From: an uncultured Fretibacterium sp.
GTDB lineage: Bacteria > Synergistota > Synergistia > Synergistales > Aminobacteriaceae
Length of the DNA stretch: 64,000 bases
Assembly: GCA_946186205.1 (NCBI GenBank)
Contig: CAMHMH010000002.1
Coordinates: 434,001 to 498,000 of the forward strand
Direction: 5' to 3'
Every line of letters begins with the position of its first letter. Positions within the stretch are counted from its first letter, which is position 1. Position numbers and translations under genes: made by a program. The notes beneath the pieces are model-generated. The model worked only from the letters and a program-made list of their open reading frames with translations. It searched no databases and had not been told where the DNA came from. Below are positions 32,228 to 50,740 of the stretch, in pieces.

Positions 32228-32257
32228 GTGCGTGTGAAAAATGAATGAGTGAAAAAA

Positions 32258-32310
32258 TTATGTGAGGGTATAACAAAAAAGACAAAGTTTATGCTATAAT
32301 TCGTTTGTCA
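32258..32310 (+). promoter_or_regulatory. Promoter of the pilin-like gene, copy 1 of a duplicated element
   Basis: The conserved block TTATGTGAGGGTATAAC, then AACAAAAAAGACAAAGT, leads to TGCTATAAT (32292-32300), a perfect extended -10. The -35 is poor, as expected with an extended -10. The same block, with few changes, is present on the minus strand at 44.3 kb. Confidence 0.75.
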
Positions 32311-32319
32311 AAACAGTAC

Positions 32320-32403
32320 GCACACAATTAGTGCGGTGCACATTCTTTGTCTCTGGAAAAATTATATCACAAAGGCAAGGGATTATGTGAATTAGTTGTG
32401 TGC
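32320..32403 (+). ncRNA. Structured leader RNA of the pilin-like gene, copy 1
   Basis: GCACACAA (32320-32327) pairs perfectly with TTGTGTGC (32396-32403), closing an 84-base domain. Inside it, CTTTGT can pair with ACAAAG, and TCACA with TGTGA, around the loop AAGGCAAGGGATTA. The 5' strand can instead fold locally (GCAC with GTGC), which excludes the closing stem. After the domain comes AAAAAATTTTTCC, then about 130 bases to the start codon. I match it to no known riboswitch; the c-di-GMP-I (GEMM) core is absent. All paired segments are preserved in the second copy. Confidence 0.6.
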
Positions 32404-32536
32404 AAAAAATTTTTCCGTTTCACAAAGTAACAAGCATCAAGCGTCAAAGGGTTTGCAGTAACCAGTCTGCAAGAGGATTCATTCGTAAATAGGCGGCGGA
32501 TGATGCAAGGAAAAATTCACAGGAGGAAAATTTCAC

Positions 32537-33061
32537 ATGAAGAAAGCACGCAAAGGATTCACGCTCGTAGAACTGTTGATAGTCGTTGCGATCATGGCTT
32601 CACTGTCAGCAATGATGATGATGGCAAGTTCCGAATCAATAGACATCGCAAACGCAAATGCAATTCTGGGCAATCTTCAGAGCATGAAAGTATCAGCATA
32701 CGAAATGTATATGACAGTCCCGGAAGTCGCAGCTCTTGATGCTATAACGGGTAATACTCAGGAGGTAACACTAACAGGAGAAACTACAGCTACAACAGTC
32801 GGAAAAATACTTGCGGGACGCATGGGCAGAAAAGCACTTATCGCAACTGACGCATACAGCATTGTAGGAGATGACGAACACTGGTATGTTGTCTATAAAC
32901 TTCAAGGCACTGACAGCCCGTTAGTCAAACAGATTCTCGCAGACAAAGCAGCACAGGCAGGATTATTAGGCGGTGAAGCAGGAACAGCAGCAACCTTTAA
33001 TGTAGATACTCCGCTAGACTTTGTAACTACTCATACACACGCTGCTTTAATGGTGCGCTAA
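32537..33061 (+). CDS. Type IV pilin-like protein
   Basis: 174 residues. The N-terminus has a short basic leader and GFTLVELLIVVAIMASLSA, the class III signal cleaved by prepilin peptidase before the Phe and methylated; the helix beyond it packs into pilus fibres. The rest is a small globular domain without visible cysteines. CACAGGAGG lies about ten bases before the ATG. No pilus machinery gene (pilB, pilC, pilD) is near. The gene stands alone with its own promoter, a 230-base structured leader and a terminator, so strong separate control is likely. Major pilin versus pseudopilin cannot be decided. Confidence 0.88.
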   Translation: MKKARKGFTLVELLIVVAIMASLSAMMMMASSESIDIANANAILGNLQSMKVSAYEMYMTVPEVAALDAITGNTQEVTLTGETTATTVGKILAGRMGRKALIATDAYSIVGDDEHWYVVYKLQGTDSPLVKQILADKAAQAGLLGGEAGTAATFNVDTPLDFVTTHTHAALMVR

Positions 33062-33110
33062 CCACACACGAACAATCGACAAACCTATAACCAAACAACA
33101 CAATACATTT

Positions 33111-33148
33111 TTAGAGTCTCTCACGCCTATGAGGGACTCTTCTTTTAT
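33111..33148 (+). terminator. Terminator of the pilin-like gene
   Basis: AGAGTCTCTC and GAGGGACTCT pair around ACGCCTAT, followed by TCTTTTA. The loop sequence and the 35 bases before it recur on the minus strand at 44.1 kb. Confidence 0.8.
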
Positions 33149-43418: not shown

Positions 43419-43473
43419 TTTCATTCTCCTTTTTGCGGGAAGCCCTTTGCGTGTGAGTGTGTGCGATTGTATG

Positions 43474-43560
43474 AAGTTCCTTGCGCCGGCATTACCCGGA
43501 TCAAGTTATGATGGTCGGAACATGGACAAAAGTTCCCTCTCAGCCTGCTAACAAGCTCCC
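43474..43560 (-). promoter_or_regulatory. TPP riboswitch (THI element)
   Basis: On the minus strand: GGGAGCTTG (P1 5' side), GCTGAGAGGG, then TGATCCGGGTAATGCCGGCG and CAAGGAAC. The conserved CUGAGA and GAUCCGGGUAAUGCCGGCG cores of the thiamin pyrophosphate aptamer are both present. A TATAAT -10 lies upstream at 43586-43591. It controls thiM-thiE-HAD-thiD/tenA-thiN, most likely by masking the thiM ribosome site, as no terminator stem is obvious. Confidence 0.95.
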
Positions 43561-43661
43561 ATAAATTTTTGATTGCGATGACGATATTATAGCCTAAAAT
43601 TTTTTGCTTACGTTCAGAAATTATTGCGTACTTTGTATATTATGCGTGAATCTTTTCTCAC

Positions 43662-43690
43662 TTGACAGATTTTCTTAAAGAATGTAATCT
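43662..43690 (+). promoter_or_regulatory. Sigma-70 promoter of the cold-shock gene
   Basis: TTGACA (43662-43667), exact 17-bp spacer, TAATCT (43685-43690). The transcript would begin near 43697, leaving a leader of about 65 bases, as is common for csp genes whose leaders control cold expression. Confidence 0.75.
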
Positions 43691-43761
43691 AGCCTTTACA
43701 AATTGATGTACCTATATTTGCGAAACATTTTTTATTATCATTATCAGGAGGCTTTTTTTTC

Positions 43762-43962
43762 ATGGCACAGGGAACTGTAAAATGGTTCAACGAAACAAAG
43801 GGCTACGGCTTCATCACCGTAGACGACGGCAAGGACGTATTCGTCCATTTCAGCGCAATTCAGGGCGAAGGCTTCAAGACCCTTAACGAGGGACAGAAGG
43901 TAACGTTCGACATCGTAAACGGCGAGAAAGGCCCCCAGGCTGCCAACGTCGTAAAACAGTAG
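43762..43962 (+). CDS. Cold-shock protein (CspA family)
   Basis: 66 residues, one OB-fold. RNP1 KGYGFITV and RNP2 VFVHFSAI are both present, followed by the conserved [17 protein letters not shown]. It binds single-stranded RNA/DNA and melts RNA structure. CAGGAGG lies upstream of the ATG. Strong codon bias and its own promoter and terminator fit high expression. Confidence 0.96.
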
Positions 43963-44023
43963 CGAGAAGGTCTCCTGCAAAACACCTACAATACTTCCAT
44001 CAGACGCAGCAGAGAATAACCAG

Positions 44024-44063
44024 TGAGAATCTTGCGGAACATTCGCGGGGTTCTCATTTTTTT
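44024..44063 (+). terminator. Terminator after the cold-shock gene
   Basis: TGAGAATCTTGCG pairs with CGCGGGGTTCTCA (several G-U pairs), followed by seven Ts. Confidence 0.85.
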
Positions 44064-44097: not shown

Positions 44098-44163
44098 GAG
44101 AGTCCCCATAATAGGCGTAGGGGACTCTCAAAATGTATTGTGTGTGTTTGGTTATAGGTTTGG
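44098..44163 (-). terminator. Copy 2 of the pilin 3' region and terminator, without the gene
   Basis: On the minus strand, AAACCTATAACCAAACA, then ACACAATACATTTT, matches the sequence following the pilin-like gene, and is followed by GAGAGTCCCC and GGGGACTCTC, a perfect 10-bp stem with the shared loop start ACGCCTAT. No pilin coding sequence lies between this and the copy 2 leader. Confidence 0.8.
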
Positions 44164-44220
44164 CATTTATTCATGTGGAGCTGCACAGGTGTGATGATTT
44201 AATATCCTAGTCAAAATTTT

Positions 44221-44306
44221 GCACACAACTAACTCACATAATCCCTTGTCCTTGTGTTATAATAACTGCCAGACAAAGAAAAATGCTGACACACTTAATT
44301 GTGTGC
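44221..44306 (-). ncRNA. Structured leader RNA, copy 2 (no downstream gene)
   Basis: An 86-base domain closed by the same GCACACAA/TTGTGTGC pairing as copy 1. CTTTGT pairs with ACAAGG (A to G change giving a G-U pair), and CACA with TGTG around AGGACAAGGGATTA. The local alternative here is CACAC with GTGTG. It is followed by AAAATTTT and about 55 bases of unrelated sequence, then the copied pilin 3' region. It may be an independent small RNA or the relic of a second pilin cassette. Confidence 0.6.
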
Positions 44307-44326
44307 TTTTTTTATTTCGCGAATAA

Positions 44327-44369
44327 ATTATAGCATATACTTTGTCTTTTTTGTTATGCCTTCACATAA
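44327..44369 (-). promoter_or_regulatory. Copy 2 of the pilin promoter
   Basis: Minus strand: TTATGTGAAGGCATAAC, then AACAAAAAAGACAAAGT and TGCTATAAT, differing from copy 1 at only a few positions. The extended -10 is intact, so this locus is probably transcribed. Confidence 0.75.
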
Positions 44370-50473: not shown

Positions 50474-50740
50474 TTTGCGCTTGCACCGTTACAGAAGACT
50501 TACAAAAAGTTATCAGCTCTTATGCTCCCTTCCTCGTTCACCGCGTCCGCTTTTACGATGTTCTGCTACTCACGTTTGATATAACGCTCCAGAGGCTTTA
50601 ATTCCCCGCTAACGTACGGGTATGATTTGTTTTTCACTTGGTATCGCTTCAGAAGCCAAGAAAATTTTACCTCATACGAAAGCTGAACATAAAAGCTAAA
50701 GTACTTAAAGTTTCTGTAAACGGTTTACCTCCTTTCTTAA
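50474..50740 (-). other. 267-base gap inside the alpha operon with an orphan ribosome site
   Basis: Between rpoA and rplQ, which are normally only tens of bases apart. AAAGGAGGT (50728-50736) lies right after the rpoA stop but no start codon follows at a proper distance. The rest holds a short hairpin (CCCGTACGTTAGCGGGG) and only tiny frames, the best being a GTG-started 23-residue frame at 50566-50637 without a ribosome site. No promoter or terminator is clear. I see no gene here. Confidence 0.6.

Follow-up and report, generated by a model that had tools for sequence, protein, structure and literature searches.

An empty pilin cassette on the minus strand of the window

The stretch of DNA analysed here (the window, 64,000 nucleotides) belongs to the 2.75 Mb, 99.7% complete genome of a Synergistaceae gut bacterium, and at 44098-44369 of its minus strand the start and end signals of a pilin gene stand without the gene. 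This raises the question of whether the locus is merely what a deletion left behind, or whether it still produces RNA of its own. Read along this strand, the segment starts with a pilin leader, which some 50 unrelated bases separate from a shared 3' element and a terminator with a perfect 10-bp stem. By BLAST inside the window, the leader matched the pilin leader at 32249-32407 with 79% identity over 163 nt (E 2e-30), and the 3' element together with the terminator matched 33065-33140 with 84% identity over 79 nt (E 6e-17). These matches bear out the first-pass annotation, which had described a copied promoter and leader on this strand and a 35-base sequence shared with the 3' side of the pilin gene. 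The complete cassette of the window (leader, 3' element, terminator) lies at 32264..33145 of the plus strand and encodes a 174-aa pilin (32537-33061, plus strand) with the type IV pilin N-terminal methylation motif (PF07963); pilus-type ATPases (PF00437) are also present in the genome.

In the empty cassette, the unrelated sequence (44164..44212, minus strand) replaces half of the leader, the ribosome-binding site and the pilin gene. This junction of approximately 50 nt, first estimated at about 55 bases, has no match elsewhere in the genome, except for the conserved 3' element at its edge. The coding sequence is indeed missing: neither a pilin gene nor any ORF with a ribosome-binding site was found between the leader and the terminator, and a hidden small protein in the empty cassette is thereby rejected. 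The shared 3' element, normally located 3' of pilin genes, occupies 44130..44163 and the terminator hairpin 44098..44129, both on the minus strand. The stem, formed by GAGAGTCCCC (44120-44129) and GGGGACTCTC (44098-44107), has 10 perfect pairs out of 10, as had been noticed earlier, the loop TACGCCTATTAT keeps the invariant CGCCTAT, and the U-tract that follows is modest (TCCTTTTCC).

The earlier picture of a family of two cassettes proved too small, as at least 14 pilin cassettes with common start and end signals are scattered over the genome. Leaders of the pilin type number 15, one of them being that of the empty cassette, and because so many of the same kind exist, the pattern at 44098-44369 is far beyond chance. 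When about 50 leaders were read, the empty cassette had the sole pilin-type leader, among those read far enough, that is not followed by a pilin. The pilins vary widely, sharing 31-61% identity with that of the window where they align best, and the main-type leaders are 76-92% alike. In the pilin cassettes, a leader hairpin with the invariant loop AATAGGCG (approximately 32470-32500 in the window) is complementary to the terminator loop CGCCTAT of the same mRNA (approximately 33117-33143). A hairpin loop ATAGGCG is found in 10 of the 14 pilin leaders of the genome, and the stems of this hairpin covary (CATCTG/CAGGTG, CATCCG/CGGATG, TATCTG/CAGATA). A 5'-3' kissing interaction between the leader hairpin and the terminator loop is possible.

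Comparison with related genomes supports loss of the pilin gene

The empty cassette is flanked by a cold-shock gene (csp) and cca. We compared this locus in related genomes, which had been proposed as a check, and found that in the nearest relative having it (G010) the same leader and terminator enclose the gene of a 169-aa pilin, again flanked by csp and cca. Aligned with G010, the locus matches without a break as far as the leader; the match starts again at the 3' element and ends in the csp terminator that both share. In a further species (G029) a pilin cassette adjoins cca too, while in two more distant species csp adjoins cca without any cassette between them. Because the same locus is intact in G010 and the cassette of G029 also adjoins cca, the empty cassette is a deletion derivative, whose pilin was lost in this lineage. 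The clean deletion of a pilin gene, one of the two possibilities first considered, is thus supported. Together with the pilin, the second half of the leader was lost, including the hairpin with the AATAGGCG loop and the ribosome-binding site.

The leader of the empty copy is of another type (AGACAAAG) than that of G010 (AGATAAGG), and for this reason gene conversion between cassettes at some point is likely. An orphan pilin-type 3' element with a terminator, but with neither a pilin nor a recognisable leader, lies at C1:165369 (L023, G000). It is a decayed cassette; no further remnant was seen in the genome.

Other RNA elements are located in the window. According to Rfam, a TPP riboswitch stands before thiamine genes (43461-43572, minus strand, 66.3 bits) and a RAGATH-18 RNA (50530-50595, minus strand, 65.3 bits) lies between the genes for ribosomal protein L17 and RNA polymerase alpha. 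The mRNA of the cold-shock gene (approximately 43581-44056) scores 61.7 bits with the cspA thermoregulator model, whose cut-off is 78 bits.

The leader contains two promoter motifs facing each other

Two extended -10 promoters (TRTGnTATAAT) stand face to face in the leader, about 75 bp apart. In the empty cassette, the sense promoter P+ (TATGCTATAAT) is at 44327..44337 of the minus strand, with a predicted start near 44320, and the convergent antisense promoter P- (TGTGTTATAAT) is at 44253..44263 of the plus strand, with a predicted start near 44271. The first-pass annotation was right about the intact -10 and overlooked the second, opposite promoter as well as the paired helices described below. 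All 15 leaders of the genome have TRTGCTATAAT or TRTGTTATAAT on the sense strand, and all 15 have the P- motif on the opposite strand. P- was also present in every leader found via BLAST or via the pilin protein, that is, without use of the inner motif. No -35 hexamer accompanies the extended -10 promoters, and a consensus promoter scan calls neither of them.

It could be argued that the leader is a ligand-binding riboswitch, in which the inner TRTGnTATAAT serves as a conserved RNA segment rather than as a promoter. The strong folding of the sense RNA and the tolerance of its C-C' helix to wobble pairs in the sense strand (see below) would agree with this. However, the segment varies solely at R and n, the positions that are free in an extended -10, and this holds on both strands. 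Moreover, part of the A-A' helix is upstream of the sense start, wobble in this helix is tolerated in the antisense strand, and the leader gave no riboswitch, known regulatory RNA or other relevant match in Rfam at either gathering or relaxed thresholds. We therefore regard a riboswitch as improbable, and treat the inner motif as a putative promoter in what follows.

Crossed helices predict one RNA from each strand

Around the promoters, two helices are arranged in the crossed order A C A' C'. In the empty cassette, A' (AGACAAAG, 44271..44278, plus strand) forms the 5' end of the predicted antisense RNA, and A (CTTTGTCT, 44340..44352, plus strand), which is wobble-compatible in the antisense strand, precedes its U-tract. 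C (GCACACAATTAA, 44295..44306) and C' (TTAGTTGTGTGC, 44221..44232), both on the minus strand, close a rod-shaped leader in the sense RNA, where the segment D (GACAAGG, 44244..44250, minus strand) is the pairing partner of A'.

Of 51 leaders, 46 have a perfect A-A', and the two strands of this helix change in pairs (GACAAAG/CTTTGTC, GACAAGG/CCTTGTC, GATAAGG/CCTTATC); a partner swapped in from a leader whose A differs fits in just 4%. C-C' comprises 10-12 pairs. In an alignment-free helix search that treats both kinds of wobble alike, scores for A of at least 8 were obtained in 74% of real cases versus 13% with shuffled flanks, and scores for C of at least 8.4 in 71% versus 7%. Counted over distinct helices, G-U pairs in C-C' number 108 in the sense versus 29 in the antisense strand, and those in A-A' number 45 in the antisense versus 11 in the sense strand. 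The mean fold z-scores of the 51 leaders against shuffled sequence were -3.9 (sense) and -4.2 (antisense), and the sense rod of the empty copy reached -4.6. When RNAalifold was applied type by type, it returned C-C' with A'-D in the sense alignment and the A-A' closing stem in the antisense alignment, the consensus index of the sense rod being 0.81 versus 0.51 in the reverse-complement control. An unselected alignment of all 50 leaders yielded C-C' only; A-A' was not recovered, as the middle is too variable to be aligned.

In the antisense RNA, a run of U follows A, and A' is no more than a few bases from the predicted start. Given the strand-specific wobble in C-C' and A-A' and this U-tract, the leader is predicted to yield a sense RNA and a discrete antisense RNA of about 70-100 nt. 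For the empty cassette, the latter would be about 82 nt long (44271-44352, plus strand), with a closing stem and a terminator at helix A. As this closing stem is A/U-rich, termination of the antisense RNA may be leaky.

The module precedes many surface-protein genes in one genus

Face-to-face promoter elements occur in 33 of the 43 genomes of the genus, each from one species, and elsewhere in the family in 3 of 40 genomes, with one element each; reversed-pattern controls gave 0 or 1. Copies are numerous: about 30 in G029, 22 in G033, 20 in G010 and 16 in the source genome. As the elements were found by pattern, they share the -10 motifs by construction, which does not apply to the helices, the U-tract or the downstream gene. 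Of 102 elements, 87 have the A-run that corresponds to the antisense U-tract on one side only, and 81 of these 87 have an ORF with a ribosome-binding site on the other; in 37 cases there is also an ORF running the other way, as divergent neighbours would produce. The genes 3' of the elements encode pilins, exported proteins, lipoproteins, an acyltransferase-like protein and small Cys-rich peptides (example: MAYSKPKTVAKSAKKSSFVAGCPEKGRQGHNCLNCERTQ), all of which, pilins excepted, were named by eye from sequence. One exported-protein family is recurrent and has YWNEGHSGTEADPYVIDTNADL after the signal peptide. In other species of the genus, the element was seen before non-pilin genes at L049, L091, L133, L134, L136-L138 and L193-L220. 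The stricter pattern of the pilin-type leader matched 7 of 183 Synergistales genomes, all of one genus, and in two of the seven (G006 and G026) a pilin was not shown downstream of the match. Judged from its sequence, the leader is a previously undescribed, putative regulatory element of this genus that stands before many surface-protein genes, and it is a more important find than the empty cassette.

Dispersed copies with similar ends and divergent contents might also be expected of a mobile element or a recombination cassette, in which case the empty copy would be a transposition footprint. However, the neighbours of several cassettes (cca, glgC and a sugar dehydrogenase gene) are kept across species, no transposase was found, and the orientation is fixed, with the module toward the gene and the U-tract on the far side in the 81 of 87 elements mentioned above. 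On these three grounds the transposon origin of the cassettes was rejected, and we consider any mobile-element reading highly improbable.

Proposed working of the module and state of the empty copy

We think it probable that the locus is a pilin cassette minus its gene and half of its leader, in which a complete two-promoter module remains, from which both RNAs are made, and that in intact cassettes this module gates the pilin. Transcription from the sense promoter would give an RNA with a 5' rod, closed by C-C' and with A'-D as the inner stem; in the empty cassette it would run to the terminator and measure about 230 nt. The antisense promoter would give the RNA of about 82 nt that starts at A' and ends in the stem with A followed by the U-tract. 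The predicted starts are about 50 nt apart and face each other, and the two RNAs should therefore be complementary over about 50 nt of their 5' parts, and the polymerases would meet head-on. In intact cassettes, pilin expression would most likely be set by this opposing transcription, by antisense pairing with the leader, or by both. Collision, or pairing with the nascent leader, would determine how frequently the sense RNA reaches the gene, and by occupying C and A' the antisense RNA would prevent the sense rod. A self-standing small RNA of about 220 bases that competes for a sensor of the pilin leader, the other possibility first considered, may exist. However, a sensor of this kind is probably an incomplete picture; as the leader holds a convergent antisense promoter, its likely partner is its own antisense RNA.

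The opposite possibility is that the pilin was recently deleted and that the leftover promoter, leader and terminator are functionless and have simply not decayed so far. We give this a little less than an even chance. The deletion itself is evident from the same locus in G010, the orphan terminator at C1:165369 shows that cassettes decay, and the divergence of the empty copy, somewhat greater than that of its paralogues, could mark the onset of decay: the copy deviates in 8 of 107 type-1 columns versus 0-3 in paralogues, and 3 of the 52 columns invariant in the other leaders differ in it, none of them in a promoter. On the other hand, P+, A, C, A', P- and C' are all present in its leader, and the promoters, the helices and the 10-bp terminator stem are intact despite 18-24% divergence from the closest paralogues in the genome. 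For this reason, production of both RNAs most likely continues at the empty cassette. The intact motifs fit continued transcription, but are no proof of selection.

Could the RNA of the empty cassette act on other loci? As a stand-alone trans regulator, it might pair as an antisense RNA with the C1:86 kb pilin cassette in its leader, soak up antisense RNAs as a sponge, or bind the AAUAGGCG hairpin of pilin leaders through its terminator loop CGCCUAU. The C1:86 kb cassette is the best target, its leader (C1_86) offering 28 nt of perfect, contiguous complementarity, and the complementarity of the conserved terminator loop to the hairpin loop of 10 of the 14 pilin leaders also points this way. 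Against it, none of the remaining leaders offers more than 13 nt of complementarity, and paralogues have mostly diverged in their overlap segments, with a median identical run of 7 nt, whereas the flanking C' and P- hardly vary. Such divergence looks like insulation in cis rather than action in trans and suggests that each antisense RNA is intended for its own leader. A trans role of this kind thus seems unlikely to us. We are equally doubtful of the broader proposal that an undescribed crossed-helix module, amplified to about 15-30 copies per genome in several species, is a common control of surface genes while the empty copy acts in trans on C1:86 kb or titrates antisense RNAs.

The reading that we prefer, with a module that gates the adjacent gene, makes the two-promoter leader the shared front end of the surface repertoire in this genus. 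On this reading, every pilin or surface gene would be under the control of an antisense RNA of its own, and the diverged overlap segments would insulate paralogues from each other; in this way surface proteins might be expressed one at a time or variably from cell to cell, with no need to rearrange the DNA. The empty cassette, with a promoter, a leader and a terminator and no protein, is a natural test object.

Comparison with known regulatory systems

Our search of the literature on pilins with convergent or antisense leaders, and on Synergistetes pilins or small RNAs, returned nothing relevant besides papers on Neisseria. In N. meningitidis, an antisense promoter 3' of pilE produces an RNA that spans the whole gene and affects antigenic variation (PMC4402397), and a pilE-linked small RNA has been described in gonococci (PMC3547852). 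Noncoding transcription at a type IV pilin locus, which is predicted here, is common to these cases. In contrast to the meningococcal RNA, the antisense promoter motif of our cassettes sits in the 5' leader and not 3' of the pilin gene, the predicted RNA is short, and no silent pilS-like copies were seen.

Structured 5' leaders ahead of pilin genes are also known in the form of c-di-GMP riboswitches, e.g., that of pilA1 in Clostridioides difficile. Unlike these, the leader described here matches no Rfam riboswitch, and its opposite strand carries a conserved promoter. Type I toxin-antitoxin modules, e.g., par of pAD1, likewise have small, convergent, structured transcripts. However, the genes under putative control here encode pilins, secreted proteins and lipoproteins rather than small membrane toxins, and the sense RNA of the empty cassette, which is devoid of coding sequence, carries no small toxic membrane peptide.

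Antisense control of leaders is known from plasmids and single genes, and plasmid replication leaders are under the control of antisense RNAs such as CopA/CopT of R1, RNAI/RNAII of ColE1 and RNAIII of pIP501. The predicted countertranscript resembles these in being short, structured and complementary to a structured leader, and the opposite promoters are likewise close together; as in CopA/CopT, a promoter motif of the opposite strand is located inside the leader. For the antisense RNA of our module, a closing stem with a U-tract is predicted. There is no sequence relation, and here crossing helices would close both RNAs, each reaching past the opposite promoter. Unlike the plasmid systems, the module is chromosomal, has many paralogues per genome and stands mostly before genes for surface proteins.
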